DNA from: Xenophilus azovorans DSM 13620
Lineage (GTDB): Bacteria > Pseudomonadota > Gammaproteobacteria > Burkholderiales > Burkholderiaceae_C
DNA length: 59,419 bases
Assembly: GCF_000745855.1 (NCBI RefSeq)
Contig: NZ_JQKD01000038.1
Location: forward strand, 1-59,419
Direction of reading: 5' to 3'
Below, one piece after another: positions 581 through 48,015 of this stretch; position 1 is the stretch's first letter, and every line of letters begins with the position of its first letter. The notes beneath the pieces are model-generated. The model was not told the DNA's origin. It saw only the letters and a list, made by a program, of their open reading frames with translations, and searched no databases. The translations under genes were made by a program, and so were the position numbers.

Positions 581-595
581 TTCCATTCTGTGGAA
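581..595. promoter_or_regulatory. IclR-type palindrome, site 1 (tctC promoter)
   Basis: TTCCA-TTCTG-TGGAA is a perfect 5+5 bp inverted repeat with a 5-base spacer, 68 bp upstream of the GTG start of the TctC-type gene at 664. The same 15-bp pattern occurs at four other promoters in the window. IclR proteins often bind short palindromes of this kind. The binding protein is inferred. Confidence 0.6.
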
Positions 596-663
596 TGGTG
601 GGATTGTGAAGCGGTGGGTTCTACCCCAGCATCCGAGTAACAAGCACATCCTCTGGAGACAAC

Positions 664-1641
664 GTGAACTCGATCCTGTCGGCACTCGGACGCGGTGCAG
701 CGTTCTTCCTCTCGATAGCCGCTATGGCATGCGCGCATGCCCAAACCTATCCTGGGCGCCCCGTGCGGGTCGTGGTGCCGTTTGCAGCAGGAGGCACCCT
801 CGACGGGCCGGCGCGCATTCTTGCAGTTCAGATGTCCAAGCTGGCCGGGCAACAGTTCATCATCGACAACAAGGCAGGCGCAGGGGGAACCGTTGGGACG
901 GCGGAGGTTGCGAGAGCACCCAGCGACGGATACACCTTGTTGGTGACATCGAGCGCGCTGCCCATCTCCCAGGCCACCTACCGGAGCGTGCCGTTCGATT
1001 CCTCGAAGAGCTTCCGGCACGTCGCGATCTTCGCCAGCCTGCCCTCGGTCATCGCGGTGAACGCGACCCAATCGAAGGTGCAGACGCTGGCGGAACTCGT
1101 CCAGCAGGCGAAGGCACAGCCTGGCCGCCTCAGCTACGCTTCACCCGGCGCTGGGACGGGGGCGCATTTCGCCGCGGAAATGTTCAAGGCGCATGTCGGT
1201 GTGGACCTGCTCCACGTTCCCTACAAGGGGGCGGCGCCGGCGGTCACGGACCTGCTGGGCGGGCAGGTCGACTTGATCGTCGCCGGCCAGTCGTCGGTGA
1301 TCCAGCAGATCAACGCAGGGAAGCTTCGCGCGCTCGCTGTGACGACGACGGAGCGATCGCCTCAACTGCCCAATGTGCCAACCGTAGCGGAGCTGTTCAA
1401 AGGCTACGAATCCATGACGTGGCTGGGCATCGCCGCGCCCGCGCAGACTCCCGATGCTGTCCTGAAGCGGCTCGCCGCACTGATCCGGGAGTCACTGGAC
1501 GATCCCTCGATCCGGCGCCAGCTGGCCGATGGCGGCGTCAATCCGATGCTTCGCGTCGACGCGGCCGCCTCCGACTTGGTCGCTCGGGATCTGCTTTCCT
1601 ACAGCACTCTGGCGCGCAAGGCAAACATTCGCGCCGAGTGA
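664..1641 (+). CDS. Bug/TctC-family periplasmic solute-binding protein
   Basis: A 325-residue secreted protein of the tripartite tricarboxylate transporter receptor (Bug) family, which binds carboxylates in the periplasm. A signal peptide of about 26 residues ends at AHA. It is followed by the family hallmarks YPGRPVRVVVPFAAGG, the IIDNKAGAGGTVGT loop near residue 66, HVPYKGAAPAVTDLLGGQVD near 180 and the late PNVPTVAE motif. Length matches the family. The GTG start at 664 is chosen because GGAGA lies 6-10 bases upstream and the signal peptide begins there. No tctA or tctB membrane genes are in the window, so it is an orphan receptor, which is common in Burkholderiales. A TTCCA-N5-TGGAA palindrome lies just upstream. 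The ligand is unknown. Confidence 0.93.
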   Translation: MNSILSALGRGAAFFLSIAAMACAHAQTYPGRPVRVVVPFAAGGTLDGPARILAVQMSKLAGQQFIIDNKAGAGGTVGTAEVARAPSDGYTLLVTSSALPISQATYRSVPFDSSKSFRHVAIFASLPSVIAVNATQSKVQTLAELVQQAKAQPGRLSYASPGAGTGAHFAAEMFKAHVGVDLLHVPYKGAAPAVTDLLGGQVDLIVAGQSSVIQQINAGKLRALAVTTTERSPQLPNVPTVAELFKGYESMTWLGIAAPAQTPDAVLKRLAALIRESLDDPSIRRQLADGGVNPMLRVDAAASDLVARDLLSYSTLARKANIRAE

Positions 1642-1700
1642 AGTCGATTCATCGCTTTGGGCGTGTGCGGCCTGGTGCCGCGATGACCCTGGAGGAGCCC

Positions 1701-2693
1701 ATGAACATGACGGGAATGCGCTGCGTGTGCACACGCTTGATGGTGGCCCTCGGCATCGGCCTGTCGCTGACGCCGCTCGCGCGAGCTCAGGCGCAGTCGA
1801 CCGAAGCACCCGCCCGGCCGGCTCACGTCCAGACGATCGCCGTAGGCGAGGTGCAGTTGACGAGCATCCTGGATGGCCAGCGTCCCATCTCGGCGAAAGC
1901 GGCGCTCCGGAACATCGGCGAGGCCGATCTGCAGCGACTGCAGGCCAGGCATGGCGAAGCCGACGATGTCGAGACCTCGTTCAACGCCTTCCTGCTGCGG
2001 TTCGGCAGTCGCCTGGTGCTGGTGGATGCTGGAGCAGGACGACTGTTCGGTGCTGAGCTGGGTAAGGCGGTCGACAACTTGCGCGCTGCCGGGATCGATC
2101 CGTCGCAGATCAGCAGCATTCTCTTGACCCACATGCACGTCGATCATGTGGGCGGACTTGTCGCAGAGGGTAGGGCTGTCTTTCCGAATGCGACCGTGTT
2201 CGCCAGCAAGGCGGAGGGCGATTTCTGGCTCTCGGAATCCGCCATGCAGGCGGCCCCATCGGCGATGCAACCCTTCTTCCGGAATGCGATGGCAGCGCTG
2301 GCGCCGTACCGCTCCGACGGCCGGTTCAAGACGTTCCTGCCCGGCGAGGAAGTTGTGCCGGGCGTCCGGTCGTTGCCTCTCCCAGGGCACAGCCCGGGAC
2401 ACAGTGGGTACCTGGTCGAATCCCAGGGCCAGACCTTGCTCCTGTGGGGCGATATCGTGCATCTGGGGGGCGTCCAACTGGCACGTCCAGCCACGGGCTT
2501 TCGCGCGGACGTCGACGTCGACGGTGCCGCAAAGACGCGGATGGATTTGTTGGCGAAGCTGGTGCAGTCGAACGCCCTTGTGGCCGGTGCACACCTGCCC
2601 TTCCCGGGCGTCGGCCGGCTTGCAACTGAAGAAGGCGGCTACGCATGGCGGCCGCTGCGCACCGACGAGACAGCTCGGCAGACTTCGAAGTAG
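1701..2693 (+). CDS. Exported MBL-fold metallo-hydrolase
   Basis: A 330-residue metallo-beta-lactamase-fold protein. The zinc motif THMHVDH is at residues 143-149 (His144, His146, Asp148, His149). Later metal ligands are suggested by LPLPGHSPGHSGY and by WGDIVHL. Residues 1 to about 32 form a signal peptide ending in ARAQA, so it probably acts in the periplasm. The ATG at 1701 has a strong GGAGGAG site at 1691-1697. The open frame runs much further 5' but that part is only antisense to the TraC remnant. It is probably co-transcribed with the TctC gene 59 bp upstream. It resembles the lactonase/quorum-quenching-like exported MBL group, but substrate is unknown. Confidence 0.9.
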   Translation: MNMTGMRCVCTRLMVALGIGLSLTPLARAQAQSTEAPARPAHVQTIAVGEVQLTSILDGQRPISAKAALRNIGEADLQRLQARHGEADDVETSFNAFLLRFGSRLVLVDAGAGRLFGAELGKAVDNLRAAGIDPSQISSILLTHMHVDHVGGLVAEGRAVFPNATVFASKAEGDFWLSESAMQAAPSAMQPFFRNAMAALAPYRSDGRFKTFLPGEEVVPGVRSLPLPGHSPGHSGYLVESQGQTLLLWGDIVHLGGVQLARPATGFRADVDVDGAAKTRMDLLAKLVQSNALVAGAHLPFPGVGRLATEEGGYAWRPLRTDETARQTSK

Positions 2694-2821: not shown

Positions 2822-3631
2822 TCACGAGTTCCGCAACCCCGCATCGATCCGCTCCGTGAGCTGTCCCAATGTCTGCGCCAGTTCCTCGACCAGGTCGCCC
2901 ATCGGCCGACCGCCGATCAGGACGCTGACGTTGCAGGCATGTCCGACAGCCAGCCGCAGCGGTGCTGCGACTGAGACGATACCGGTCTGCCAGACTGCGG
3001 CGCAATAGCCTTGAGTGCGGCACATCGTGATGGCGGCGAGGATCTCCTGGCATCGTGCAGGCCACAGCGCCGGGTGCCTGGCCTGCAGCTGACACAGGGC
3101 TTGCTCCAGATCAGAGGCACCTAGCGTGGACAGGTAGGCGCGGCCGAGCGCAGTGAGCGCCATCGGGATGCGCGAGCCCGCAGTGACATGGCGGAATACC
3201 TCGCTGCGACTCCCGCGGATCGAGTCGAGGTAGACCATGTCTGTGCCGTCCGGCACTGCGATCCCGACGTTGATACGTCTGCCCTCGGCGACGCCACGCA
3301 TCAGCGGCCGCGCGAGGCGGGACACCTCGGAGCCCTGCTGCATCGCCAGGCCAAGGCTGAGCAACGGCGCTCCAAGCCGGTACACGCCTTCCTCGGGAAG
3401 CCACTCGAGAAAGCGCTCCTGCACCAGTGTCTGCGTGAGCCGACTCACGGTAGAGCGCGGTAGTCCGACACGTTCGGCAAGCTCGCTGTTGCTGAGGACG
3501 GCCACGCCGGGGACGAACGCGCGCAGCAGGTGCAAGCCCCGCACGAGTGATCGATTGTTGTGTTGCTGGCGCCTAGGGCCTTCCAGGCCATCGCTGGCAG
3601 AGGTGCCCGAGGATCGTGGAAGGCGGGCCAT
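2822..3631 (-). CDS. IclR-family transcriptional regulator (copy 1)
   Basis: A 269-residue IclR-family protein. The N-terminal winged helix-turn-helix (about residues 28-85) contains NSELAERVGLPRSTVSRLTQ. The C-terminal effector domain has DMVYLDSIRGSRSEVFRHVT, GRAYLSTL and QGYCAAVWQTGIVSVAAPL. It converges on the MBL gene and lies between the tctC/MBL pair and the aldo/keto reductase/aldehyde dehydrogenase pair. Its recognition helix (RSTVSRLTQTLV) is identical to that of the second IclR protein near 38 kb, so both may bind the TTCCA-N5-TGGAA sites. The start at 3631 (MARLPRSS) is the first in the frame; no strong ribosome site decides it. The effector is unknown. Confidence 0.92.
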   Translation of the reverse strand: MARLPRSSGTSASDGLEGPRRQQHNNRSLVRGLHLLRAFVPGVAVLSNSELAERVGLPRSTVSRLTQTLVQERFLEWLPEEGVYRLGAPLLSLGLAMQQGSEVSRLARPLMRGVAEGRRINVGIAVPDGTDMVYLDSIRGSRSEVFRHVTAGSRIPMALTALGRAYLSTLGASDLEQALCQLQARHPALWPARCQEILAAITMCRTQGYCAAVWQTGIVSVAAPLRLAVGHACNVSVLIGGRPMGDLVEELAQTLGQLTERIDAGLRNS

Positions 3632-3751: not shown

Positions 3752-4738
3752 TCAGGCGGCCGCCGCTACGGGACGGCGCAGCGAAGGGTCCAGGCGTCTC
3801 ATCGCGGACTCTGGATATCGCTCGCCAGCGGGCAGGATGCGCTCCAGTGTCTGAAGGAGTTCGTCGCCCAACTGTAGCGACAACGCGCCGAGGTTCTCCC
3901 GCACCTGCGCAGGGGTAGTTGCGCCCACGATCGGCACGGCCTGGCGCGTGCGCAGGATCCAGGCGATTGCGAGTTGGGCGGGAGTGGCGCCGAGTGTGGC
4001 GGCTTGGGCGCGAACCTCGTCCACTAACTGCAGGTTCTTTTGGAAGTTCTCGCCCATGAAGCGCGGGTACTCCTTGCGCTGGTCGCCATCGGGAATGTCG
4101 GCCGGAGACTTGATCTGGCCGGTGAGGAAGCCGCGGCCCAGCGGTGCATAGCCGAAGAAACGGATCCCGTGCTCACGGCAGGCAGAGAGCGTGTCGTACT
4201 CCGGGTCGCGGCTCCAGAGCGAGTATTCGCACTGGATCGCGCTGATCGGGTGTACGTCCATCGCCGCCTTAAGCGAGGCGCGGCTCACCTCGCACAGACC
4301 GAGCGTGCGGACCTTTCCCTTCTCGACCAGCCGCTTCATCGCGCCCACCGTTTCCGCGACAGGCACCTTGGGATCGACGCGATGCAGATAGTAGAGATCA
4401 ATGTGGTCGATGCCCAGGCGCTTGAGGCTGGCATCGCACGCCGTTTCGATCCGCTCGGGCCTCGCATCGAGACCGCGCTCATCGGAGCGAACACCGAACG
4501 TGAAGCCGACCTTGGTGCACACCTGTACGGCATCGCGACGTCCGCGGATCGCCTCGCCGACCAACACCTCGTTCTCGCCGTCGGCGTAGAGATCGGCCGT
4601 GTCGACCCAGGTCTGTCCGGCGTCGAGGAAGGCCTGAATGGTGGCGATGGCGTCGGCACGCGCCACTGCGCCATAGCAGCCGGTCATAGCCATGGTGCCC
4701 AAGGCTAGCGAATGATCGGCCGGTGTGTGTTCGTTCAT
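3752..4738 (-). CDS. Aldo/keto reductase
   Basis: A 328-residue NADPH-dependent aldo/keto reductase of the AKR13/YakC-like type. Visible motifs are WVDTADLYADGENE (catalytic Asp and Tyr), CTKVGF (Lys), DLYYLHRVDP (His), GLCEVSRA, IQCEYSLWSRDPE, APLGRGFLTGQI and the cofactor loop IPIVGATTPAQV in the form VPIVGATTPAQV. The ATG at 4738 is preferred over an upstream one at 4759 because AAGGAG lies 6-11 bases before it and the family begins there. It follows the aldehyde dehydrogenase gene on the same strand by 48 bp, so the two probably form an operon that reduces or oxidises a carbonyl compound. The substrate cannot be told. Confidence 0.92.
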   Translation of the reverse strand: MNEHTPADHSLALGTMAMTGCYGAVARADAIATIQAFLDAGQTWVDTADLYADGENEVLVGEAIRGRRDAVQVCTKVGFTFGVRSDERGLDARPERIETACDASLKRLGIDHIDLYYLHRVDPKVPVAETVGAMKRLVEKGKVRTLGLCEVSRASLKAAMDVHPISAIQCEYSLWSRDPEYDTLSACREHGIRFFGYAPLGRGFLTGQIKSPADIPDGDQRKEYPRFMGENFQKNLQLVDEVRAQAATLGATPAQLAIAWILRTRQAVPIVGATTPAQVRENLGALSLQLGDELLQTLERILPAGERYPESAMRRLDPSLRRPVAAAA

Positions 4739-4786
4739 GGAGTCTCCTTGAGGATGCAATCGAAGCGGGATGCGTGAGATCCGCGC

Positions 4787-6268
4787 TCAGGTTCGGATCG
4801 AAAACGGGTCGTCGTCGGTCTCTGCGGTGTCGACCATCACGTTCTGCACAGTGAGGTAGGCGCGCAGACCTTCGGAGCCGCGCTCGCGGCCGAAGCCACT
4901 TGCTTTTCGTCCGCCAAACGGTGCCTGCACCGCGCCCACGCGGTAGGTGTTGATCCAGACATTGCCGCATTCAAGGCGGCCTGCCACGCGGTGACCGCGA
5001 GCGATATCGCGCGTCCAGATCCCGCCAGCCAGGCCGAATTCCGAATCGTTGGCAATGCGGATCGCTTCGTCCTCGTCCTCGAAAGGCAGCACTGCGAGCA
5101 CCGGGCCGAAGACCTCGTGCCGGGCGATGTCCATGTCGTTGCGCACGTCGGCGAACACCGTAGCCGGCACGAACAGGCCGCGGCCCGGCACCGTCTGGCC
5201 CTCGATGCCGGGCCCTGCGACCATGCGCGCTCCACCGCCCCGCGCCTGCTCGATCAGGCCGAGAATGCGCGCGTGCTGTGGCGCGTTGGCCACCGGACCC
5301 ATCTGTGTGTCGGGCTGCATGGGATCGCCCTGGCGGATGAGTCGGGCGCGCCGCCCCAGTTCGTCAACAATCTGCTCGTAGACCGGCCTCTGCACCAGCA
5401 GCCGCGAGCCAGCGATGCAGGTCTGCCCGCCAGCGGCGAAGATCCCGGCGATCGCACCATTGACCGCGCGCGAGAGATCGGCGTCGGCGAACACGATGTT
5501 GGGCGACTTGCCACCGAGCTCCAGAGTGACCGGAACCTGCCGCTGCGCGGCCTGTTCCATCACCTTGCGTCCCCCTGCGTTGCCGCCGGTGAAGCTGATC
5601 TTGCGAACCTTCGGATGGTTGACCAACGCCGCACCGGTATCGCCGGCACCAGTGACCACGTTGACCACGCCGGCCGGAAAGCCGGCCTCCTTGAAGAGCT
5701 GCGCGAACTCCAGCGTGGTGACGGGCGCAAACTCCGAAGGCTTGACCACCGCGCAATTGCCGGCCGCCAGTGCCGGCGCGAGCTTGTTCGACAGGATCGC
5801 CATCGGGCTGTTCCACGGTGTGATAAGCGCGACCACGCCGAAGGGCCGGTAGACGGTGAAGTCAACGATGCGGGGGTTGTCCAGCGGCAGGTACTCGCCA
5901 TGGATCTTGTCGGCATAGCCCGCGTAGTAGCGGTAGCTGCGCGCGGCGAATCGCATCTGCGTCAGCGTTTCCTTGTAGAGCTTGCCGTTGTTGCGCGTCT
6001 CCAGCTCGGCGAAACGCTCGGCTTGCGCGTCGAGCAGGTCCGCCAGTCGGTTGAGCAGGCGGCCTCGCTGGTAGCCGCTGGTTGTCGACCATGCGGTTTC
6101 GACGCATTGTTGCGCCGACAGAACGGCCCGATCCACATCGGACGCGTCGGCCTGGGCCACGCTGCCCCATTGTTCCTGCGTGTATGGATTCATCACTGGC
6201 AAGCGCGGCAGCGTGCTCTGCGCTGCGATCTCTTCATGGCCGATCCACAGGCCTCGATCAAAATTCAT
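4787..6268 (-). CDS. NAD(P)-dependent aldehyde dehydrogenase (copy 1)
   Basis: A 493-residue aldehyde dehydrogenase of full family length. ITPWNSPMAIL (about residues 149-159) and VVKPSEFAP bind the cofactor. The general base is Glu250 in VTLELGGKSPN and the nucleophile is Cys284 in GGQTCIAGSR. The EVFGPVLAVLPFEDEDEAI motif follows. The start at 6268 (MNFDRG) has GAGGAG upstream; the longer frame from 6328 has no family support. It is the first gene of a likely operon with the aldo/keto reductase. The palindrome TTCCG-N5-TGGAA lies 136 bp upstream of the start, so IclR control is likely. It belongs to the broad betaine/aromatic-aldehyde dehydrogenase group. Confidence 0.95.
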   Translation of the reverse strand: MNFDRGLWIGHEEIAAQSTLPRLPVMNPYTQEQWGSVAQADASDVDRAVLSAQQCVETAWSTTSGYQRGRLLNRLADLLDAQAERFAELETRNNGKLYKETLTQMRFAARSYRYYAGYADKIHGEYLPLDNPRIVDFTVYRPFGVVALITPWNSPMAILSNKLAPALAAGNCAVVKPSEFAPVTTLEFAQLFKEAGFPAGVVNVVTGAGDTGAALVNHPKVRKISFTGGNAGGRKVMEQAAQRQVPVTLELGGKSPNIVFADADLSRAVNGAIAGIFAAGGQTCIAGSRLLVQRPVYEQIVDELGRRARLIRQGDPMQPDTQMGPVANAPQHARILGLIEQARGGGARMVAGPGIEGQTVPGRGLFVPATVFADVRNDMDIARHEVFGPVLAVLPFEDEDEAIRIANDSEFGLAGGIWTRDIARGHRVAGRLECGNVWINTYRVGAVQAPFGGRKASGFGRERGSEGLRAYLTVQNVMVDTAETDDDPFSIRT

Positions 6269-6403: not shown

Positions 6404-6418
6404 TTCCGATCAGTGGAA
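6404..6418. promoter_or_regulatory. IclR-type palindrome, site 2 (aldehyde dehydrogenase promoter)
   Basis: TTCCG-ATCAG-TGGAA, one mismatch from the perfect form. It is flanked by AA and TT, so the core reads AATTCC-N7-GGAATT. It lies 136 bp upstream of the aldehyde dehydrogenase start at 6268. Confidence 0.5.
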
Positions 6419-7812: not shown

Positions 7813-8457
7813 ATGAATATCGAAATACGCCGGGTGCTCACCCACGTGGAGGACATCCGTCACGAGTTCGGCCCGCTCGCCGCCCAGCCGCTGCGAAAGG
7901 GCTACGTGGCGGCCGTGCTCACCAATCCGTTTGCCGGGCGCTATGAGCCCGACATTCTTCCGATGATGGAGGCGCTCAACGAGGTCGGCGTGGCCATGGC
8001 GCGGACGCTGCGAAGCGCGCTGGCGGTGTCGGTGGACCGTATCGAGGGGCACGGAAAGGGAGCCATCGTGGGTGCTGCGGGGGAGCTGGAGCACGGTGCG
8101 CTGTGGCATGTCCCCGGCGGCTATGCGATGCGCGAGCTGCTGGGATGGAAAGGCAGCCGCGCTGCCTACACGCAGGGCACGGAGGATGGGCAGAAGGGGC
8201 AGCCGGGAAACGGTCTCTCCATCGTGCCCTCGACCAAGAAGGTGGGCCCGCCGGGAGCGACGCTGGACGTCCCGCTCACGCACATCAACGCCAGCTATGT
8301 GCGAAGTCACTTCGATGCCATCGAGGCCAGTGTGCCGGATGGTCCGCAGGAAGACGAACTCGTGGTCATCCTGGCCATGAGCACCGGGCCACGCATCCAT
8401 GCGCGCGTGGGTGGCCTCAGGGCTGAGGACATCTCCAAGTGGGACGGCCTGCGCTAG
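7813..8457 (+). CDS. PF06684 (DUF1185, 'amino acid synthesis') protein, copy 1
   Basis: A 214-residue protein of PF06684. Solved members have a variant chorismate-mutase-like fold and no proven reaction. The family look is clear in EIRRVLTHVEDIRHEFGP, NPFAGRYEPDI, the glycine-rich GHGKGAIVGAAGELEHGALW, the TKKVGPPGATLDVPLTH stretch and DELVVILAMSTGPRIHARVG. The ATG has AAGGAGAC upstream. It opens the operon and is followed 28 bp later by a shorter paralogue. The fixed pairing with a Liv-type importer and an enoyl-CoA hydratase suggests a catabolic role for a small imported compound. This is inference. Confidence 0.88.
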   Translation: MNIEIRRVLTHVEDIRHEFGPLAAQPLRKGYVAAVLTNPFAGRYEPDILPMMEALNEVGVAMARTLRSALAVSVDRIEGHGKGAIVGAAGELEHGALWHVPGGYAMRELLGWKGSRAAYTQGTEDGQKGQPGNGLSIVPSTKKVGPPGATLDVPLTHINASYVRSHFDAIEASVPDGPQEDELVVILAMSTGPRIHARVGGLRAEDISKWDGLR

Positions 8458-8485
8458 AGCTTCCATGTACTCCGAAGGCAAGAAC

Positions 8486-8977
8486 ATGAAATCAGAGATC
8501 CGAAAGCTCGTCGTCGAGGTCGAGGACCTGCGCATCCATGGCGGGGTGGCCCTTGTGGCGCCGAGGCGGCGCGCGCTTGCCATCGCGGTCGTGGCCGCCC
8601 CTGCGGGCGGCACCGACCTGGAGGCGCTGCGCGCCATCGGCTCCGAGATCGGCGAGGTGCTCCACCATCGATGCGCAGAGGCGCTGGGACTCAAGCCATC
8701 CCGAGTGCTCGGTGATGGAGGTGCCGTCCTGATGGGCGAGGGTGTTCGGCCAGAGCTGGCTCAGGCCGTGCTGCATGGGCTGGCTGGAGCTGCCGCCGCG
8801 GTGTCGGATGTTAACTCGGTCTCCGCGGCCGGTACGCTCGGATCGACGCTCGAGGTCCCGCTGTATCGCCTGGCGCCCACCACGGGGGACCTGGAGGTGA
8901 TGGATGCGCGGGTGAACGATGCGCCGAGGCGCGGTGAGCTGATAGTGGCCCTGATGCGCGCCGAAGCGCGGCAATGA
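8486..8977 (+). CDS. PF06684 (DUF1185) protein, copy 2
   Basis: A 163-residue paralogue of the preceding gene, clearly shorter. It shares the EIRKLVVEVEDLRIHGG opening, the GDGGAVLMGEGVRPELAQAV glycine-rich stretch, GTLGSTLEVPLYRL (compare GATLDVPLTH in copy 1) and the closing GELIVALMRAEAR. It lacks most of the insert around residues 110-150 of copy 1. The two may form a heteromer. The start at 8486 (MKSEIRK) fits the family; an ATG at 8465 is the alternative, and neither has a strong ribosome site. It is followed 15 bp later by the permease gene. Confidence 0.82.
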   Translation: MKSEIRKLVVEVEDLRIHGGVALVAPRRRALAIAVVAAPAGGTDLEALRAIGSEIGEVLHHRCAEALGLKPSRVLGDGGAVLMGEGVRPELAQAVLHGLAGAAAAVSDVNSVSAAGTLGSTLEVPLYRLAPTTGDLEVMDARVNDAPRRGELIVALMRAEARQ

Positions 8978-31602: not shown

Positions 31603-32744
<1,142 letters not shown>

Positions 32745-33394: not shown

Positions 33395-33412
33395 GGGACG
33401 GGCTCCTCGCGT

Positions 33413-38708: not shown

Positions 38709-38723
38709 TTCCATTGCTTGGAA
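38709..38723. promoter_or_regulatory. IclR-type palindrome, site 3 (iclR copy 2 promoter)
   Basis: TTCCA-TTGCT-TGGAA, perfect, 30 bp upstream of the start of the IclR gene itself. The place suits autoregulation. Confidence 0.65.
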
Positions 38724-38996: not shown

Positions 38997-39011
38997 TTCC
39001 ATACATTGGAA
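38997..39011. promoter_or_regulatory. IclR-type palindrome, site 4 (tctC/beta-oxidation promoter)
   Basis: TTCCA-TACAT-TGGAA, perfect, 126 bp upstream of the GTG start of the TctC-type gene that opens the acyl-CoA operon. Confidence 0.65.
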
Positions 39012-39137
39012 TTGAAGAGATGCCTTTCCGGGCGCCGCCATCTATGCTCGGTTCGAAGAGATCGCTGCCTGGCCGGCATATGCCTCCGGCCTCCGATGCC
39101 GATCCGAAGCGTCCTGCAACTTCGTGGAGACAAGAAA

Positions 39138-40139
39138 GTGACCAGCACCATTCCGTCAACAAGAGGTCCGCTCCGCAGAGCGGTGGTCGGACTGCTCCTG
39201 GCGAGCACCATGTGTGGCCTGCAGGTCGCGTCCGCCCAGAGCTTTCCTCTCAAGCAGCCGATCCGCATCGTGGTGCCGTTCGCGGCGGGAGGCGGGACCG
39301 ACCTCATCGCGCGCGTGCTTGGCTCCGGCATGGCCCAGGACTTGGGCCAGACGGTGATCGTCGACAACAAGCCGGGCGCGGGAACGGTGATCGGCACCGA
39401 TGCGGTCGCCAAGAGCGCACCCGATGGCTACACGCTGGTGATCGCGACCTTTGCGCACGCCGTCAATCCGACCCTGCAGGCCAAGCTGCCCTATGCGCAT
39501 GCGACAGCCTTCACGCCGGTCAGCCTGATCGGCCGTTCGCCCAACGTACTCGTCGTCCGCCCGGACCGGTCCTTTCGGACCGTGGCCGACCTGGTCGCAG
39601 AGGCCAAGCGTACGCCGGGCAAGCTCACCTATGGCTCCTTCGGCAACGGCACGTCGGCGCACCTCGCCGCGGAGCTGTTCAAGAGCATGGCCGGGGTCGA
39701 CCTGACCCACGTGCCGTACCGAGGAGCCGGTCCCGCCATCACGGACCTGCTGGGCGGCCAGATCGACATGATGTTCTCCACCGCGGCCAGTGTCGCACCC
39801 TACGTCCACAGCGGGAAACTGCGGGCGATCGCCGTGACGTCGGCGCAGCGCTCGCCCGCCATGCCGACGGTGCCGACGATCGCCGAGAGTGGCGTCGCGG
39901 GCTACGTCGCCGAGAGCTGGTACGGCATCTACGCGCCGGCGGGAACGCCGGCCGACGTGGTGGCCCGCTTGAACGGTGCCATCAGGAAGGCGGCCGCCAG
40001 CGACACGTTCAAGAAGCGGGTCGAGAACGAGGGCCTGGTCATCACCGCCTCGGCGCCAGCCGAATTGACCCGCTACGTCGATGCGGAACAGGCACGCTGG
40101 CAGAAGGTGATCCGGGACGCCCGCATCACGGCGGACTGA
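39138..40139 (+). CDS. Bug/TctC-family periplasmic solute-binding protein (copy 2)
   Basis: A 333-residue secreted receptor of the tripartite tricarboxylate family. A signal peptide (LLLASTMCGLQVASAQ) precedes FPLKQPIRIVVPFAAGGGTD, VIVDNKPGAGTVIGTDAVAK, GSFGNGTSAHLAAELFKSMA and HVPYRGAGPAITDLLGGQID. The GTG at 39138 has GGAGA at good spacing; an ATG at 39096 is less likely. It is the first gene of a five-gene operon with CoA enzymes, so its ligand is probably the carboxylic acid that these degrade. No TctA/TctB genes are in the window. Confidence 0.93.
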   Translation: MTSTIPSTRGPLRRAVVGLLLASTMCGLQVASAQSFPLKQPIRIVVPFAAGGGTDLIARVLGSGMAQDLGQTVIVDNKPGAGTVIGTDAVAKSAPDGYTLVIATFAHAVNPTLQAKLPYAHATAFTPVSLIGRSPNVLVVRPDRSFRTVADLVAEAKRTPGKLTYGSFGNGTSAHLAAELFKSMAGVDLTHVPYRGAGPAITDLLGGQIDMMFSTAASVAPYVHSGKLRAIAVTSAQRSPAMPTVPTIAESGVAGYVAESWYGIYAPAGTPADVVARLNGAIRKAAASDTFKKRVENEGLVITASAPAELTRYVDAEQARWQKVIRDARITAD

Positions 40140-40172
40140 CAGTTGCTGCAACCCCAACGAGTATTCACAACC

Positions 40173-40967
40173 ATGACCTCCACCTACATCGAACTGCGCG
40201 TCGACGACGGCGTCGGCATCCTGACCCTCAACCGCCCGGACGTGCGCAACGCAATCAACGACGACATGCGCGCCGAACTGATGGACGCGCTGGATCAGCT
40301 CGGCCGCGACAACGCGGTGCGCGCCGTGGTACTCACGGGCAACGGCAAGGCCTTCTGCGCCGGTGGCGACATCCGCGCCATGCAGCAGCGCATGCAGGCG
40401 CCTGCCGGCGAAGTGGCCTTCAACGGCTGGTCGCGCCAGCAGCGCACCCATCACGCGCTCACGGCCCTGCACACCCTGGCCAAGCCGACCATCGCCGCGG
40501 TCAACGGCGCGTCCACCGGCCTCGGCACGGACCTCGCGATGGCCTGCGACTTCGTGATCGCCAGCGAGCCGCACGCCAGCTTCGCCTGGAACTACGTGCT
40601 GCGCGGGCTCATTCCGGACGGTGGGGGCATGTACTTCCTTCCGCGCCGCGTGGGGCTGGTCAAGGCCAAGGAACTCATCTTCACGGGGCGGACCGTGCGG
40701 GCGCCCGAGGCGCGCGAACTCGGCATCGCCGATCGGCTGAGCGCGCCCGAGTCCCTGCTCGCCGATGCCGTCGCGTGGGCGCGTGAGCTCACCGTCGGAT
40801 CGCGCACCGCCCTGGCGCTGGGCAAGACCATCCTCAACCAGAGCTTCGAGCTGCAGTCCGAGCAGGTCTTCGGCATGGGAAGCCAGGCGCAGGCCATCTG
40901 CTACAGCTCGCAAGAGCACCGCGAGGCGGTCAACGCCTTCCTCGACAAGTCCGCCAAGAAGGAATGA
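40173..40967 (+). CDS. Enoyl-CoA hydratase/isomerase family protein (copy 2)
   Basis: A 264-residue crotonase-fold protein. ILTLNRPDVRNAINDDMRAE, LTGNGKAFCAGGDIRAMQQR (oxyanion hole) and IAAVNGASTGLGTDLAMACD are well conserved. The two catalytic glutamates of hydratases are not: the first is Asp in GLGTDLAMACD and the second Asn in FAWNYVLRGLIPDGGG. So it is more likely an isomerase or another crotonase activity than a hydratase. It overlaps the start of the synthetase gene by four bases (ATGA). Confidence 0.9.
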   Translation: MTSTYIELRVDDGVGILTLNRPDVRNAINDDMRAELMDALDQLGRDNAVRAVVLTGNGKAFCAGGDIRAMQQRMQAPAGEVAFNGWSRQQRTHHALTALHTLAKPTIAAVNGASTGLGTDLAMACDFVIASEPHASFAWNYVLRGLIPDGGGMYFLPRRVGLVKAKELIFTGRTVRAPEARELGIADRLSAPESLLADAVAWARELTVGSRTALALGKTILNQSFELQSEQVFGMGSQAQAICYSSQEHREAVNAFLDKSAKKE

Positions 40968-43147
40968 ACGCCATGACCGCCATCCACTCCACGAGCGCCG
41001 CGACCGGCCCGGACCGGGTCGCCCGTCTGCTGAACCCGCGCAGCGTGGCCATCATCGGCGCCTCGGCGGACCTGAACAAGACCTCGGGGCGCCCGGTGAC
41101 CTATCTGCAGAAGCACGGCTTTCAGGGCCGGATCTATCCGGTCAACCCGAAGGTGCAAAGCATCGCCGGACTGACCTGCTACCCCGACGTGGGCGCGCTG
41201 CCCGAGGCACCGGATGTCGCCATCGTCCTGCTGGGCGCAGAGCGTGCCCACCTTGCGGTGCGGGATCTGGCCCAGCGCGGCACCAGCGCAGCGATCATCC
41301 TGGCCAGCGGCTACGCCGAGACCGGCCCAGAGGGCCAGGCGCGCCAGGCGCAATTGCTTGAGGCGGCCGGCCCGATGCGCCTGCTCGGCCCCAACACCAT
41401 CGGGCTCGTGAACCTGACCGACCACATCACCTTGTCGGCCAGCGGCGCGCTGGAAATTGATCAACTCGCCAGGGGGTCGATCGCGGTGGTCTCGCAAAGC
41501 GGTGGCATTCTGGGTTCGCTGCTGTCCCGCGGCGCGGCGCGCGGGATCGGTTTCTCCAAGCTCATCTCGACCAGCAACGAGGTGGACCTGGACATGGCGG
41601 ACTTCATCGACCATCTCGCCGACGATGACGCGACTCAGGTGATCGCGCTGTACATGGAAGGCGTGCGCGATGTCGCCAAGTTCCGTGCCGCGGCCCTGAA
41701 GGCCGCGCGCGCAGGCAAACCCCTCGTCGTCTTTAAGATCGGCCGTTCCGAGTCGGGCGCCAGCGCCGCGGCGTCGCATACGGGGGCGCTTGCTGGCGCG
41801 GACCGCATGTACGACGCCCTGTTCCGCGAGGTCGGTGCCATCCGGGCCGGGACGTTCGCCGACCTGTTGGACATTCCCGCTGCTCTGGCATCGGGGCGCC
41901 GCCTGCGCGGCCGCCGCGTGGCCATCCTCACCTCCACGGGCGGTGCCGGCACGCTGGTCGCCGACAGCCTGGGGGTCGCCGGCTTCGAAGCCCCCCCGCC
42001 GGATGCGGCGACCGCACAGCTGCTGCGCGAGCTGCAAGCGGGCGGCCCTTCCGTGCTGGACCGCAATCCCATCGACGTGACGCTCGCGGGCCTGCAGCCC
42101 GACCTGTTGCGCGCCGCGATCCGGGCGCTGCTGGCCAGTCCAACCTACGACGCCGTGGTCGTGATCGTGGGTTCCTCGGCGCTGGCGATGCCCGATCTGA
42201 TGGCCGATGCCATCCACGACTGCCTGCCGGGGTCGGACAAGCCGGTGCTGGCATACGTGAGCCCGCATGCGCCAGAGGTGGCCGCGCTGCTCAACCAGCG
42301 CGGCGTGCCGGCCTTCGCGGCGCCCGAGAGCTGCACGACCGCGCTGGTGGCCTTGCTCGACAGCGGCGCCAACGTGCAGCAGGTCGACGATGAGGCGGGT
42401 GCGCCCGTCGACATCGGTGATCTGCCGGCCGGCTCGCTCGACGAGGCCGAGGCGAAGTCCCTGTTCGCCCGCTTCGGGGTTCCCGGGGTGCGCGAGGTGT
42501 CCGTGGCCGATGGCGACGAGGCACAGCGCGCCGCGCAGTCGCTCGGCGACAAGGTCGTCCTGAAGATCCGCTCGCGCGCGATCACGCACAAGACCGAGGT
42601 CGGCGGCGTCGCCGTGGCGGTCCCGGCGGACCAGGTGCGCCAGCGCTTGGCGGCGATGCGCGACGAGGTGCGCGAGAAGGCCGGTGCCGCTCCGAACGCC
42701 TACCTCGTGCAGGAGATGGTGTCCAGCGGCACGGAGCTGATCCTGGGCATGCACCGTGATGCCCTGGGCACGGCCGTGCTGCTGGGCATGGGTGGCGTGA
42801 CCGCCGAACTGATCAACGACACCGTGCTGCGGATGGTGCCTGCGGGCGGCGCGCTGACCCGCGAGGGCGCGCGTGCCATGGTGCAGGCGCTCAAGACCTA
42901 CCCCTTGCTCGACGGCTACCGCGGACGGCCCAAGGCCGACGTTGAGGCGTTGATCGACGCGGTCGTCGCGTTCTCCCGCATGGCCGGGCATCTCGGTGCA
43001 CGGCTGGAGACGGCCGAGATCAATCCGCTCTTCGTGCTCCCGGAAGGGAAGGGGGTCCGCGCAGCCGACGGCGTCGTGGTGCTGGCGCCCGCCGAGACGG
43101 GGGAGGCCAGCGGCTCCGTCCCCTCGGCACAGCCGGCGTTCGCCTGA
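40964..43147 (+). CDS. NDP-forming acyl-CoA synthetase (acetate--CoA ligase family)
   Basis: A 727-residue ACD-type ligase with alpha and beta parts fused. The N-terminal CoA-binding domain starts LLNPRSVAIIGASADLNKTS and PVTYLQKHGFQGRIYPVNPK. The succinyl-CoA-ligase-like middle has VVSQSGGILGSLLSRGAARG and the phospho-histidine motif AAASHTGALAGADRMYDALF (His near 268). The C-terminal ATP-grasp part has VLKIRSRAITHKTEVGGVAV and LGMGGVTAELINDTVLRM. It makes an acyl-CoA from a free acid with NTP, giving NDP and phosphate. It provides the activation step for the beta-oxidation enzymes that follow. Confidence 0.94.
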   Translation: MNAMTAIHSTSAATGPDRVARLLNPRSVAIIGASADLNKTSGRPVTYLQKHGFQGRIYPVNPKVQSIAGLTCYPDVGALPEAPDVAIVLLGAERAHLAVRDLAQRGTSAAIILASGYAETGPEGQARQAQLLEAAGPMRLLGPNTIGLVNLTDHITLSASGALEIDQLARGSIAVVSQSGGILGSLLSRGAARGIGFSKLISTSNEVDLDMADFIDHLADDDATQVIALYMEGVRDVAKFRAAALKAARAGKPLVVFKIGRSESGASAAASHTGALAGADRMYDALFREVGAIRAGTFADLLDIPAALASGRRLRGRRVAILTSTGGAGTLVADSLGVAGFEAPPPDAATAQLLRELQAGGPSVLDRNPIDVTLAGLQPDLLRAAIRALLASPTYDAVVVIVGSSALAMPDLMADAIHDCLPGSDKPVLAYVSPHAPEVAALLNQRGVPAFAAPESCTTALVALLDSGANVQQVDDEAGAPVDIGDLPAGSLDEAEAKSLFARFGVPGVREVSVADGDEAQRAAQSLGDKVVLKIRSRAITHKTEVGGVAVAVPADQVRQRLAAMRDEVREKAGAAPNAYLVQEMVSSGTELILGMHRDALGTAVLLGMGGVTAELINDTVLRMVPAGGALTREGARAMVQALKTYPLLDGYRGRPKADVEALIDAVVAFSRMAGHLGARLETAEINPLFVLPEGKGVRAADGVVVLAPAETGEASGSVPSAQPAFA

Positions 43148-43159
43148 AGGCAGGCCGCG

Positions 43160-45220
43160 ATGAGCCAATCCCCGGTGGTGCGCTGCGAGCGCGAGGGTGA
43201 GGTCCTGCTGATCCTGATCGACAACCCTCCGATCAACGCCGGGTCGGCACCCGTGCGGGCCGGCCTGGTGGACGCCGTCGCGCAGGCGGAAGCCGACAGC
43301 GAGATCCGCGCGGCGGTGATCATGGGCGCCGGCAATACCTTTGTCGCAGGCTCCGACCTGCGGGAGTTCGGCCAGCCCCTGCAGGATCCACAGCTGCCGG
43401 CCGTGATCGAGGCGATCGAGCGGTGCGGCAAGCCCATCGTCGCGGCGTTGCACGGTGCGGCGCTCGGCGGTGGCTTCGAGTTGGCGCTGGGCTGCGATGC
43501 GCGCGTCGCGCTGCGAGGGACCGTCGTGGGGCTGCCGGAGGTCACGCTGGGGATCATCCCGGGGGCGGGCGGCACGCAACGCCTGCCGCGCCTGGTGGGC
43601 CGACCCCGCGCTCTGAAAATGATCTGTAGTGGCGAGCGTGTCGGCGCCGCGGAGGCGTTGGTCTCGGGAATCATTGACGCGGTCGTTGACGCCGACCTGC
43701 GCACAGCAGCCCTGCGCTACGCGAGCGAGATGGGCGCCAAGCGCCGGGTGCGCGATCTGCCGGTGCCGGCCGATGACGCGGCGGCCTTCGAGGAGGCGGC
43801 CACCAGGGCCCTGAAGGCCGGGAGGAACCGGCCGAACGTCGCCGCAGCCATCGTGGCGGTCCGCTCGACGGGCGCGAGGGACTTCGATGAGGGGCTGTAC
43901 CAGGAGCGGGAGGCCTTCCAAGCCCTGCGCGTGGCGCCCGATGCGTTCGCTCTTCGCCACCTCTTCTTCGCCGAGCGGCAGTCTGCCCGGCCCGCACCCC
44001 TCGAGGGCACGGACCCGAAGGCCGTGCACAGCGTGGCCGTCATCGGCGCGGGCACCATGGGCTCCGGCATCGCGATCGCCGCGCTCGACGCCGGCTGCCA
44101 GGTGCTGCTGGTGGAGCAGGACGCCGATGCCCTGCAGCGCGGTACCGATCGTGTGAACAAGCACTACGCATCGCGCGTGGCCGCCGGCAAGCTCGCGAAG
44201 GAGCGGGCGGCCGATTGTGAGCAGCGGATGGCGCCGACCCTGGACTGGGCGCGGATCAGGGAGGCCGACCTGATCATCGAGGCCGTGTTCGAAGACTTGG
44301 CCATCAAGCGCACGGTCTTCGAGCGACTCGACGGCGTGGCGCGACCTGGCGCTGTGCTGGCTTCGAACACGTCCTACCTCGATCTGGATGCCATCGCCGC
44401 GGCCACGGGGCGTCCGCAGGACGTCATCGGATTGCACTTCTTCAGTCCTGCCCAGGTGATGCGCCTGGTCGAGGTCGTGGGCGGCGCGAAATCCTCCGCG
44501 CAGGCGCTGGCGACCGGCGTACAGCTGACCAAACGGATGGGCAAGCTGCCGGTGCTCACGCGCAACGCGTTCGGTTTCATCGGCAACCGGATCTATGCGG
44601 CCTACCGGCGGCAGTGCGAGTTCATGCTGGAGGAGGGTGCCTACCCGCGTGATGTGGACGCGGCGCTCGAGGCCTGGGGCTTCGCGATGGGGCCCTTCGC
44701 CGTCGCCGACATGTCCGGCCTGGACATCGCCTGGCGGATGCGCCAGGCGCAGGCCGCGCGCCGCGATCCGGCAGCACGCTACGTGGAGATTCCGGATCGG
44801 TTGTGCGAGCGGGGCCGCCTGGGGCGCAAGACAGGTCTGGGCTACTACGCGTATCCCGAAGGCGGTGCGCGTCCGCAGGTCGACGCGGCGGTGCACGCGC
44901 TGATCGACGAGGCAAGCCGCGCGAAAGGCCTTGTGCGCCGAAGCCTAGCCGCGGAGGAGGTCCAGCGCCGAGCGCTGCTGTCGATGGTCAACGAGGCGGC
45001 ATTGCTCGTGGCCGAGGGGGTGGCCTTCCAGACGGCCGACGTCGACCTGGTGCTGGTCAACGGCTATGGCTTCCCGCGCTGGCAGGGCGGCCCCGTCTGG
45101 TGGGCACGTCAGCGAGGGCGCGAAGCGCTGCGCCAAGAGCTTGTCTGGCTGGCGGGGCTCAGCGGGTCAGGCTTCAAGGCCGGCGACCCCGACGTACTTC
45201 TGGACCCCAAGCAGGGATGA
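43160..45220 (+). CDS. FadB-like enoyl-CoA hydratase / 3-hydroxyacyl-CoA dehydrogenase fusion
   Basis: A 686-residue bifunctional enzyme. The N-terminal crotonase domain (about 1-190) keeps the oxyanion loop MGAGNTFVAGSDLREFG and both glutamates, in GAALGGGFELALGCDARVAL and VGLPEVTLGIIPGAGG. The NAD-binding domain starts near 290 with VAVIGAGTMGSGIAIAALDA. ASNTSYLDLDAIAAATGRPQ and GLHFFSPAQVMRLVEVVGG give the dehydrogenase active-site region with the catalytic His. Two C-terminal dehydrogenase domains complete it. It carries out hydration and oxidation in beta-oxidation. Confidence 0.95.
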   Translation: MSQSPVVRCEREGEVLLILIDNPPINAGSAPVRAGLVDAVAQAEADSEIRAAVIMGAGNTFVAGSDLREFGQPLQDPQLPAVIEAIERCGKPIVAALHGAALGGGFELALGCDARVALRGTVVGLPEVTLGIIPGAGGTQRLPRLVGRPRALKMICSGERVGAAEALVSGIIDAVVDADLRTAALRYASEMGAKRRVRDLPVPADDAAAFEEAATRALKAGRNRPNVAAAIVAVRSTGARDFDEGLYQEREAFQALRVAPDAFALRHLFFAERQSARPAPLEGTDPKAVHSVAVIGAGTMGSGIAIAALDAGCQVLLVEQDADALQRGTDRVNKHYASRVAAGKLAKERAADCEQRMAPTLDWARIREADLIIEAVFEDLAIKRTVFERLDGVARPGAVLASNTSYLDLDAIAAATGRPQDVIGLHFFSPAQVMRLVEVVGGAKSSAQALATGVQLTKRMGKLPVLTRNAFGFIGNRIYAAYRRQCEFMLEEGAYPRDVDAALEAWGFAMGPFAVADMSGLDIAWRMRQAQAARRDPAARYVEIPDRLCERGRLGRKTGLGYYAYPEGGARPQVDAAVHALIDEASRAKGLVRRSLAAEEVQRRALLSMVNEAALLVAEGVAFQTADVDLVLVNGYGFPRWQGGPVWWARQRGREALRQELVWLAGLSGSGFKAGDPDVLLDPKQG

Positions 45221-46431
45221 ACACGATGACCCGACATGCTTTCATTTGCGATGCCATTCGCACCCCCTTCGGCCGCTACGGCGGTAGCCTGGCGTCGGTT
45301 CGTGCCGACGATCTCGCCGCAGTGCCGCTACGCGCCTTGCGGGAACGCAACCCAGCGGTGGACTGGCAGGCAGTCAGCGATGTGATTCTCGGGTGCGCCA
45401 ACCAGGCCGGCGAAGACAACCGCAATGTCGCGCGCATGGCCGCGCTGCTCGCCGGCTGGCCGGTCGAGGTGCCCGGCAGCACGGTGAACCGCCTGTGTGG
45501 CTCGGGCCTGGACGCTGTCGGAACGGCTGCGCGCGCGATCCGCAGCGGCGACGCCGGCCTGATGGTAGCGGGCGGCGTCGAGAGCATGAGCCGTGCGCCA
45601 TTCGTGATGGGCAAGGCCGAGCAGGCGTTCGCGCGAACGGCCAGTCTGGAAGACACCACCATCGGCTGGCGTTTCATCAATCCGGCGATGAGGGCGGCTC
45701 ACGGCGTGGATTCGATGCCTCAGACGGCGGAGAACGTGGCGGTCGACTACCGCATCTCCCGCGAGGACCAGGATCGCTTCGCGGCGGCCAGCCAGGCCAA
45801 GGCGCTCGCGGCGCAGGCGAGCGGGCGCCTGGCCCGGGAGATCGTGCCGGTCGCGGTCCCGCAGCGAAAGGGCGAACCCGTTCTCGTCGCCCAGGACGAG
45901 CACCCGCGCGCCACCACGATCGAAGCGCTGGCGAAGCTCAGGGGCGTGGTCCGTCCGGACGGCACCGTGACCGCGGGCAATGCGTCCGGAGTGAACGACG
46001 GCGCCTGCGCGCTGCTGCTTGCCGACGAGGCTACCGCCGCGCGCCATGGCCTCACGCCGCGCGCGCGTGTCCTGGGCATGGCAGCCGCCGGCGTGCCGCC
46101 GCGCATCATGGGCATTGGACCCGCGCCGGCGACCCGCAAGGTGTTGGCGTTGACGGGCCTCAGCCTGGACCAGATGGACGTGATTGAACTCAACGAGGCA
46201 TTTGCTTCGCAGGCGCTGGCCGTGCTGCGCGAGCTGGGCGTTCGCGACGACGATCCACGCGTCAATCCCAACGGCGGAGCCATCGCGCTCGGCCATCCGC
46301 TGGGGGCGAGCGGCGCGCGCCTCGTCACCACGGCGGTCGAGCAGCTGGGGCAGTCCGGTGGGCGCTACGCCCTGTGCACCATGTGCATCGGGGTCGGACA
46401 GGGCATCGCGCTGGTCATCGAGCGCTGCTGA
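45217..46431 (+). CDS. Acyl-CoA thiolase (3-oxoadipyl-CoA thiolase-like)
   Basis: A 404-residue degradative thiolase. The acyl-binding Cys94 lies in GSTVNRLCGSGLDAVGTAAR, the catalytic His in NPNGGAIALGHPLGASGARL, and the second Cys in CTMCIGVGQGIALVIE. DAIRTPFGRYGG near the start and FINPAMRAAHGVDSMPQTAE resemble PcaF-type thiolases that cleave 3-oxoadipyl-CoA. The ATG at 45217 overlaps the preceding stop (GGATGA); 45226 is a possible alternative. It closes the beta-oxidation operon and is followed by two strong hairpins. Confidence 0.95.
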   Translation: MNTMTRHAFICDAIRTPFGRYGGSLASVRADDLAAVPLRALRERNPAVDWQAVSDVILGCANQAGEDNRNVARMAALLAGWPVEVPGSTVNRLCGSGLDAVGTAARAIRSGDAGLMVAGGVESMSRAPFVMGKAEQAFARTASLEDTTIGWRFINPAMRAAHGVDSMPQTAENVAVDYRISREDQDRFAAASQAKALAAQASGRLAREIVPVAVPQRKGEPVLVAQDEHPRATTIEALAKLRGVVRPDGTVTAGNASGVNDGACALLLADEATAARHGLTPRARVLGMAAAGVPPRIMGIGPAPATRKVLALTGLSLDQMDVIELNEAFASQALAVLRELGVRDDDPRVNPNGGAIALGHPLGASGARLVTTAVEQLGQSGGRYALCTMCIGVGQGIALVIERC

Positions 46432-46498: not shown

Positions 46499-46688
46499 AC
46501 CGCTGCCCGCCATTGATAAGGTTGCCTTCATAGCCTTTGCGGCGAATAGGCCTTGGCAAAGGGGCGACGCACCGCGAGCATCGACAGCCAGCAGGCCCCT
46601 CTCAGGGCGGGCGCTCCCGCTCCGCACTGCGGCTTGCCACCCATTCCTCCACCGATCGTTCCTGTGCGTGAGCGCGGGCCCATCAAGG

Positions 46689-47858
46689 ATGTGCGTGCAG
46701 TCCTCTCGTCTTCCGATCAGCCGCAGGGCCGCGATCGCCGCGGTAGCGCTCCTGGCGGCCGGCAGCCAGATGCCTGCCACCGCGCAGCAGAACGCCGGCT
46801 CCCGTGCGCCCAACCCGACCAAGCCGTTCGTCGAGTCGGCGGTCGCGACCTTCGATTCGCCCTGGGCGCTGGCCTTCCTGCCCGACGGTCGGATGCTCGT
46901 GACCGAGAAGGCCGGGCGGCTCTTCCTGGTGACGCAGTCCGGTGCGAAGCGCCAGGTGGACGGTGTGCCACAGGTTGCGAACGTGGGCCAGAACGGCTTG
47001 CTGGATGTTGCCGTCTCGCCGCAGTTCGATCGCGATCGATCAGTCTATCTGACGTATGCAGAACCTGGTACCCAAGGCAGCGGCCTGGCACTCGCGCTGG
47101 CACGCCTGGGCGAGAATAGCGGCAGGGTCGGGCTCGACAGCTTGCGCGTGATCTGGCGCCAGTTGCCCAAGGGCTCAGGCGGCCAGCCGGGCGGCATCAT
47201 CGCCTTCTCCCCGGACGGGAGGCACCTCTTCCTGACGTCTGGCGACAGGATGCGGCCCGCCACGGCCCAGGATCCCGACCAGGCACTCGGCAAAGTGCTT
47301 CGGCTGAATCTCGATGGCAGCGTGCCCAACGACAACCCTTTGGCCAGTCAAGGCGGCGTGCGGGCCCAGACATGGACCACGGGCCACCGCAACCCCTATG
47401 GACTTGCGTTCGCACCCGATGGGCGCCTGTGGCTGCACGAGATGGGCCCCTTGGGCGGAGACGAACTCAATCTCATTCGGCCGGGCCTCAACTATGGCTG
47501 GCCCTTGGTCTCGAACGGGGACAACTACGACGGCACGCCCATCCCAAACCACAGCACCCGGCCGGAGTTCGAGGCGCCGCGCATCTACTGGAACCCGGTG
47601 ATTGCGCCGGCAGGCCTCGCCTTCTATGCCGGACAGGCATTTCCCGACTTCAACGGCTCGGCCCTCATCGGCGGCCTTCGCGCCCAGGCGCTCGTGCGCA
47701 TCGCGTTCGATGATGACGGCCGGGCGCGCGAGGCCGATCGCTGGGACATGGGGCACCGCATCCGCGATGTCGCGGTGGCCCGCGACGGTGCCATCTGGCT
47801 CCTCGAGGACTCGAACGAGGCGCGGCTGCTGCGCTTGACGCCGCGATCGCGGCCGTGA
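46689..47858 (+). CDS. PQQ-dependent sugar dehydrogenase-like protein (Asd/YliI type)
   Basis: A 389-residue exported beta-propeller protein. A twin-arginine-like start (PISRRAAIAAVALLAAGSQ) precedes the propeller. SPWALAFLPDGRMLVTEKAG, NGLLDVAVSPQFDRDRSVYL, WTTGHRNPYGLAFAPDGRLW, EMGPLGGDELNLIRPGLNYG and NPVIAPAGLAFYAGQAFP are family hallmarks, including the catalytic His-Arg region and PQQ/calcium sites. It would oxidise aldose sugars in the periplasm. It stands alone between two operons; the ATG at 46689 has AAGG only four bases before it. Confidence 0.9.
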   Translation: MCVQSSRLPISRRAAIAAVALLAAGSQMPATAQQNAGSRAPNPTKPFVESAVATFDSPWALAFLPDGRMLVTEKAGRLFLVTQSGAKRQVDGVPQVANVGQNGLLDVAVSPQFDRDRSVYLTYAEPGTQGSGLALALARLGENSGRVGLDSLRVIWRQLPKGSGGQPGGIIAFSPDGRHLFLTSGDRMRPATAQDPDQALGKVLRLNLDGSVPNDNPLASQGGVRAQTWTTGHRNPYGLAFAPDGRLWLHEMGPLGGDELNLIRPGLNYGWPLVSNGDNYDGTPIPNHSTRPEFEAPRIYWNPVIAPAGLAFYAGQAFPDFNGSALIGGLRAQALVRIAFDDDGRAREADRWDMGHRIRDVAVARDGAIWLLEDSNEARLLRLTPRSRP

Positions 47859-48000
47859 GAGGCCATGAGCCTTCCATTGGACGGCGTGCGGCTTCTTCCT
47901 CACGGCATTGAGTCGCCGGCAAAGGCAGGCCGACGTGCATCCGCTCCATGGGGCGCCTCCAGGGCCCGGATGTCCCGCCGGGCGGGTACTCCGGAAGGTG

Positions 48001-48015
48001 TTCCATGCAATGGAA
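48001..48015. promoter_or_regulatory. IclR-type palindrome, site 5 (second Liv/catabolic operon promoter)
   Basis: TTCCA-TGCAA-TGGAA, perfect, 74 bp upstream of the binding-protein gene that opens the 48-56 kb operon. Confidence 0.65.

Follow-up and report, generated by a model that had tools for sequence, protein, structure and literature searches.

A conserved palindrome predicted to link separate catabolic operons of Xenophilus azovorans in one IclR-type regulon

Introduction

Do apparently separate blocks of catabolic genes answer to one regulator? This question is raised by a contig of Xenophilus azovorans DSM 13620 (NZ_JQKD01000038.1, positions 1 to 59,419), on which the palindrome TTCCA-N5-TGGAA recurs in front of transporter and enzyme genes. 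The window, by which we mean this whole stretch of 59 kb, is the entire contig 34 of a 6.5-Mb genome in 132 contigs, and it encodes two IclR-family regulators, here called IclR1 and IclR2. The original prediction held that the palindrome ties distant blocks together in a single IclR-type regulon. From the sites, their conservation and their spacing to promoters, all of which can be read directly from the DNA, we infer binding, activation, an inducer and a history: it is probable that the IclR2 clade has AATTCCA-N5-TGGAATT as its operator, that IclR2 activates four promoters and represses its own gene, and that the dispersed sites share the history of one module.

Results

Perfect copies of the palindrome are found at 581-595 (O1), 38709-38723 (O3), 38997-39011 (O4) and 48001-48015 (O5), and a copy with one mismatch lies at 6404-6418 (O2), exactly where they had been reported. 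These are the only sites in the window at zero or one mismatch, where 100 shuffles give a mean of 0.54 and a maximum of 3, and all five are intergenic. At two mismatches the pattern becomes loose, with 27 sites against 10.1 expected. The assignment of each site to a gene holds as well, with 29-135 bases between site and start codon: 68 to the solute-binding protein gene TctC1 (GTG 664), 135 to the aldehyde dehydrogenase gene ALDH1 (ATG 6268; GTG 6328 is possible), 29 to IclR2 (ATG 38679), 126 to TctC2 (GTG 39138) and 74 to the binding protein of the second Liv operon (ATG 48090). The large operons had been said to hold no copy, and none is found in them by the site search or by a weight matrix. 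This matrix, for which the orthologous loci supplied 85 distinct perfect sites, does tell sites from chance: it scores the five window sites at 23.7-31.2, and the next best at 5.4. Within the window, no site accompanies the first Liv operon (7.8-15.6 kb), the genes for a major facilitator superfamily (MFS) protein, a short-chain dehydrogenase/reductase (SDR) and ALDH2 (20.8-24.8 kb), or the block at 27.7-35.5 kb.

Genome-wide, eight perfect sites were found, compared to one for a reversed control pattern. Half of them lie in the window, for which the density in the rest of the genome gives a Poisson P of 7e-8. Three are in coding sequence (L002, pyrB-like; L003, ribD-like; L008, rsmH-like; identities read from translations), and one separates a TctC gene from a further, distantly related IclR gene (L001:1501-1515, on contig C11). 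The latter was left out of the regulon: the adjoining regulator is 21% identical to IclR2, and a -10 at +31/32 is absent. Among 23 IclR-like matches in the genome, only IclR2 and this gene on C11 have a perfect site within 1.5 kb. The genome scan with one mismatch allowed, which had been proposed as a check, does return an excess (135 sites against 74 for the control), but the pattern alone is indecisive, as chance is not separated by it. The 19-base TTCCA form with up to two mismatches occurs at eight genomic places, five of which are the window sites. Both searches, with counts near the controls, were dropped as a means of extending the regulon beyond the window, and a one-mismatch pair on contig C4 (202767 and 202893) was rejected, its flanks not being conserved and the expected promoter being absent.

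IclR2 is the likely reader of the palindrome, given the footprint at its orthologues. In the best 80 of 105 relatives, analysed with up to 10 kb on either side, a perfect palindrome is present close upstream (-500 to +60 relative to the start of the IclR match) in 55, and anywhere in the locus in 70, amounting to 90 perfect sites in 1.49 Mb. Where gene order has changed, the palindrome is still found with the TctC-hydratase-ligase promoter: five Cupriavidus loci with a relocated iclR carry it 4.2-7.1 kb before iclR, and eight loci of Paraburkholderia, Burkholderia and Caballeronia carry it 2.2 kb after the iclR start, paired at 44-46 bp. The core is preceded by AA (followed by TT, both strands counted) at 68% per position, although these flanks were unused in choosing the sites, and 88% of the orthologue sites have C or G at position 7. 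In a family set of 299 genomes, that of the window among them, with a threshold of 1e-50 for IclR2 orthologues and counts tallied by hand, the flanked pattern WTTCCA-N5-TGGAAW occurs in 27 of the 33 genomes with an orthologue, against 93 of the 266 without one (Fisher P = 3e-7). Most likely, then, the palindrome is the operator of the IclR2 clade.

The distance between operator and promoter is fixed. IclR2 lies divergent from the TctC2-hydratase-ligase-FadB-thiolase operon, and 59 orthologous loci are likewise divergent, of which 49 were used (6 had no site, 3 had two sites in the interval and 1 repeat was removed). Counted from the operator, a TAnnnT word begins at base 32 in 43 of these and at base 31 in 5, hence in 48/49 promoters, while shuffles give a mean of 0.47 and a maximum of 3 for offset 32; the three most strongly conserved positions are the T, the A and the last T of this -10 hexamer. 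The 80 loci contain another 33 distinct perfect sites, 23 of which show TAnnnT at offset 31-32 on one side (background 0.7%); distal copies of tandem pairs account for 8 of the ten misses, and L106 and L123 for one site each. Such tandem operators, 44-46 bp apart, were seen in L119, L120, L121, L125, L126, L127, L128 and L132, with a -10 at +32 for the proximal operator and not for the distal one (the proximal copy of L128 was excluded as a repeat).

In the window, O1 is followed by a predicted -35 TTGTGA (604-609) and -10 CAGCAT (627-632), O2 by TTGCCC (6395-6390) and CACTAT (6372-6367) on the minus strand, O4 by a predicted -10 TATGCT (39043-39048), and O5 by TTGTGA (48024-48029) and CAATAC (48047-48052). 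At this common offset, -35 and -10 together match at 7/12 positions for TctC2, TctC1 and ALDH1 and at 6/12 for the second Liv operon. It is the best of 49 offsets, with a mean of 6.75 against 2.88 over all offsets (sd 0.98), unmatched in 5000 shuffles. With this fixed spacing the operator is centred near -51, ahead of the -35 box, a position in keeping with activation. O3 lacks this promoter spacing on both sides, including a -10 at +32, and instead follows TACACT on the minus strand, which fits autorepression; probably, O3 serves autoregulation of IclR2. Whereas one site serves both genes in 50 of the 59 divergent loci, the window has two, 288 bp apart. The five sites are therefore of two kinds, O3 on the one hand and, on the other, the four that are spaced from a promoter as an activator site would be.

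O2 departs from the others in sequence, as AATTCCG-ATCAG-TGGAATT combines one TTCCG half with one TTCCA half. The nearest relative of IclR1 that was found is 72% identical and belongs to Variovorax sp. J22P271 (L058), and in the same genome the run carrying ALDH1-AKR-IclR1 (AKR, aldo/keto reductase) starts after TTCCG-ATAGA-CGGAA (L185:13230). Four IclR1-like genes of another genus (L188, L189, L216, L218) have AATTCCG-N5-CGGAATT 4-5 kb off, each with AACAAT at offset 32-37; in L188 a run of SDR, acyl-CoA dehydrogenase and TctC genes follows this site. IclR1 and these five relatives form one tree group (98/76, with a long-branch warning), within which TTCCG-N5-CGGAA is present in all five loci besides the window's, whereas the 80 IclR2 loci hold 90 TTCCA-TGGAA sites, 1 TTCCG-CGGAA and 1 hybrid. 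Five other IclR1-like loci (L190, L191, L215, L219, L220) have neither motif within ~10 kb and fall in a separate tree group. Since the TTCCG half of O2 matches the palindrome found beside the IclR1 clade, IclR1 and IclR2 probably differ in site preference and O2 would not merely be a weak copy; O2 may be a meeting point of these two relatives. To prove a half-site code, more than five loci would be needed. IclR1 and IclR2 are 46% identical and have RSTVSRLTQTL of the recognition helix in common. All six proteins of the IclR1 group read LSN where the IclR2 orthologues shown read LGN, and the serine column was counted as Ser35 of TtgV, a residue described as contacting the DNA backbone (PMC8222616, in the part cited here); one further aligned protein has Ser in this column, yet a TTCCA site.

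Regarding the origin of these sites, the genes for ALDH1, AKR, IclR1, TctC1, ligase, hydratase, a TctC and IclR2 all lie within 11 kb in L058, while in the window they form two blocks ~31 kb apart (TctC genes in the gene-order tables of relatives were matched by the TctC1 query only). In the tree, IclR2 of the window clusters with a V. paradoxus plasmid and three Variovorax sequences (96/83) and apart from the four Pseudacidovorax orthologues. ALDH1 has no match at 1e-180 in any other of the 299 family genomes, and a search of 12 genomes gave no relative above 50% for the binding protein of the second Liv operon. Because both blocks stand side by side in one Variovorax genome, a single module is the probable ancestor of the dispersed sites, and the Liv operon, whose binding protein is without such a relative, would be a later recruit. 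Towards its two ends the contig has a traC-like gene with a TraG P-loop domain (1-542, minus strand, its front part missing at ~542) and a DUF1173 gene (57689-58912, plus strand), which suggests that this DNA belongs to the cargo carried by a conjugative plasmid or an integrative element.

The genes under the predicted operators are as follows. TctC1 (664-1641, plus strand; PF03401) encodes a TctC-type solute-binding protein and is located to the left of the minus-strand run of ALDH1 (4787-6268; PF00171), AKR (3752-4759; PF00248) and, as last gene, IclR1 (2822-3631). The latter and IclR2 (37867-38679, minus strand) both score above the cut-offs of PF09339 and PF01614, which places them in the IclR family, an assignment that for IclR1 is joined by the tree and for IclR2 by its orthologues. 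Neither falls in the PcaR/PcaU/PobR subfamily: against TIGR02431, IclR1 reaches 92.2 bits with a cut-off of 284.75, and no NCBIfam model matches IclR2 at 1e-40. On the plus strand, O4 precedes TctC2, a second TctC-type solute-binding protein (39138-40139; PF03401 on the longer frame 38808-40139), an enoyl-CoA hydratase family protein (ECH2, 40143-40967; PF00378), an acyl-CoA ligase of the ADP-forming type (AcsADP, 40964-43147; PF13549, PF13607, PF13380 and PDB relatives), a FadB-like hydratase/3-hydroxyacyl-CoA dehydrogenase (43160-45220; PF02737, PF00378, PF00725) and the 3-oxoadipyl-CoA thiolase PcaF (45217-46431, start approximate), which at 712.4 bits exceeds the equivalog cut-off of 597 for TIGR02430. 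The PDB relatives of AcsADP include 3-hydroxypropionate and 4-hydroxybutyrate CoA ligases and a dimethylsulfoniopropionate (DMSP) lyase, none of which decides the substrate. A feruloyl-CoA-type degradation was considered for the hydratase-ligase pair and rejected, as neither is named by any NCBIfam model above cut-off. The second Liv operon (48090-56178, plus strand; Pfam) encodes the binding protein, ALDH3, an SDR, a 2-hydroxyacid dehydrogenase, two ATPases and two permeases.

Elsewhere in the window, one frame at 8993-10882 joins a UrtB-type permease in its first half to a UrtC-type one in its second, thus a fused LivH-LivM-like protein, and two neighbouring, slightly overlapping frames at 7813-8977 both match PF06684 (AA_synth). 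A 749-residue protein of the tannase-like DUF6351 family is encoded at 16752-19001 on the minus strand. The block at 27691-35529 is higher in GC at third codon positions and holds flavoprotein, glycosyltransferase, AIR synthase-like, radical SAM and nitrilase-like genes, with an IS110-type transposase inside it at 31776-32744; in gene content it resembles the Nit1C nitrilase cluster.

Discussion

In the mechanism proposed here, O1, O2, O4 and O5 would each lie a short way ahead of the -35 region in a weak sigma-70-like promoter, with the -10 hexamer starting 32 bases after the operator. IclR2, probably together with an inducer derived from the pathway, most likely activates the four promoters of TctC1, ALDH1-AKR-IclR1, TctC2-hydratase-ligase-FadB-thiolase and the second Liv operon, while its binding at O3 would most likely repress iclR2. 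The hybrid O2 is possibly shared by IclR1. As to the core module, a Variovorax-like donor is the probable source, and the spread over the cargo would have come later. The idea of a single IclR-type regulon is thus sustained as far as an IclR-type operator, the tying of distant blocks and IclR2 as likely reader are concerned, the last through orthologue footprint and spacing; it changes in that the sites are not equivalent and that O2, one half of which matches the palindrome found beside the IclR1 clade, is probably more than a weak copy. Taken together, the prediction is well supported and describes a regulon of known type, whose promoter geometry is fixed and in which the paths of two regulators may cross.

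Both the motif type and the protein family are already known. Activators of aromatic catabolism within the IclR family include PcaU, PobR and MhpR-type proteins; as with these, the regulator gene here is divergent from the controlled operon, the pathways are aromatic or involve CoA esters, and activation would apply. We take COG3181 to be the TctC family. A link between COG3181 and aromatic catabolism is described in the part of PMC8222616 cited here, which gives a different motif, GTNCG-N5-6-CGNAC, for the group of PcaU, PobR and MhpR. Closer to the window sites is a subgroup of the group 1 motifs of the IclR family in the same source, WTT-11-AAW, or WTTYCRYW3RYGRAAW (Suvorova and Gelfand 2021, PMC8222616). 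It likewise is an odd palindrome with equally spaced TTCC...GGAA arms, often near iclR and one or two adjacent operons, whereas the inner bases (W3, R/Y) of the window sites deviate from its consensus at several positions. All five window sites carry the core TTCC(A/G)-N5-(T/C)GGAA, and the site is conserved at the promoters of orthologous regulators (55/80 close, 70/80 anywhere). The parts of PMC8222616 cited here do not report an operator-to--10 spacing. The E. coli IclR operator, TGGAAATNATTTCCA (Table 1, PMC8222616), has the words TGGAA and TTCCA and the protein family in common with the window sites, but with the order of the arms reversed, making it another arrangement. Among the listed titles and abstract openings of open-licence papers on IclR with these genes, this motif or this operator position, none dealt with this regulon.

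Could IclR2 instead repress at all sites, bound beside the -35 box where it hinders RNA polymerase until the inducer releases it? Repressors are common among IclR-family members according to the parts cited of PMC8222616 and PMC13273656, and the operator edge is merely ~8 bases from the predicted -35. Yet a fixed -10 distance in 48/49 promoters is unneeded for repression from outside the core promoter, and the -35 and -10 words are weak, so that repression throughout appears unlikely. That both regulators read all five sites alike, the G of O2 being a harmless mismatch, would agree with recognition helices that are identical from RSTVSRLTQTL onward; it is made doubtful by the split between the clades, in which TTCCG-N5-CGGAA accompanies the IclR1 group at 5/5 loci outside the window and TTCCA-TGGAA all but two of the sites in the IclR2 loci. 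Finally, the sites might be due to chance or serve an unrelated protein, as the genome is rich in one-mismatch copies, and of the perfect ones three fall within coding sequence and one adjoins an unrelated IclR gene. Against the enrichment, the orthologue footprint, the flanking bases and the fixed promoter spacing, we consider this highly improbable.

Activation by IclR2 through a conserved operator thus remains the preferred explanation, and several observations weigh against it. One-mismatch copies in the genome are just 1.8 times as many as in the control, and the 19-base forms have high controls too (57 vs 30; 17 vs 10). No perfect site is present in 10/80 orthologue loci, nor in the interval of 6/59 divergent loci, and the flanked pattern also occurs in 93/266 genomes that lack an IclR2 orthologue. 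In the window, the full TAnnnT is seen only at the TctC2 promoter, the other -10 words being CAGCAT (TctC1), CAATAC (second Liv operon) and CACTAT (ALDH1), and a simple generic sigma-70 scan returned no promoter in the four window regions. Activation, moreover, is deduced from operator position alone.

A more speculative extension, which we put forward tentatively and would not yet expect to hold, is that one operator has been split by two IclR regulators with a near-identical recognition helix into TTCCA and TTCCG codes, through residues outside that helix. IclR1 and IclR2 would then meet at the hybrid O2, as mixed dimers or either in turn, and the signal of IclR2 would also raise IclR1. Genes might join such a regulon by gaining an operator and promoter as a cassette at fixed spacing, whatever they encode.

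For the organism, the predicted regulon turns loosely related cargo genes into a co-regulated set of transporters and enzymes, and tells which of these genes should answer to one inducer. As the TctC2 operon ends in a PcaF-type thiolase, the substrate would be a C6 dicarboxylic or aromatic-derived CoA ester. Operator and -10, at their constant spacing, make up a composite pattern that is more specific than the palindrome for locating the regulon elsewhere, and the split between TTCCA and TTCCG would provide a small case of paralogous regulators changing their sites.

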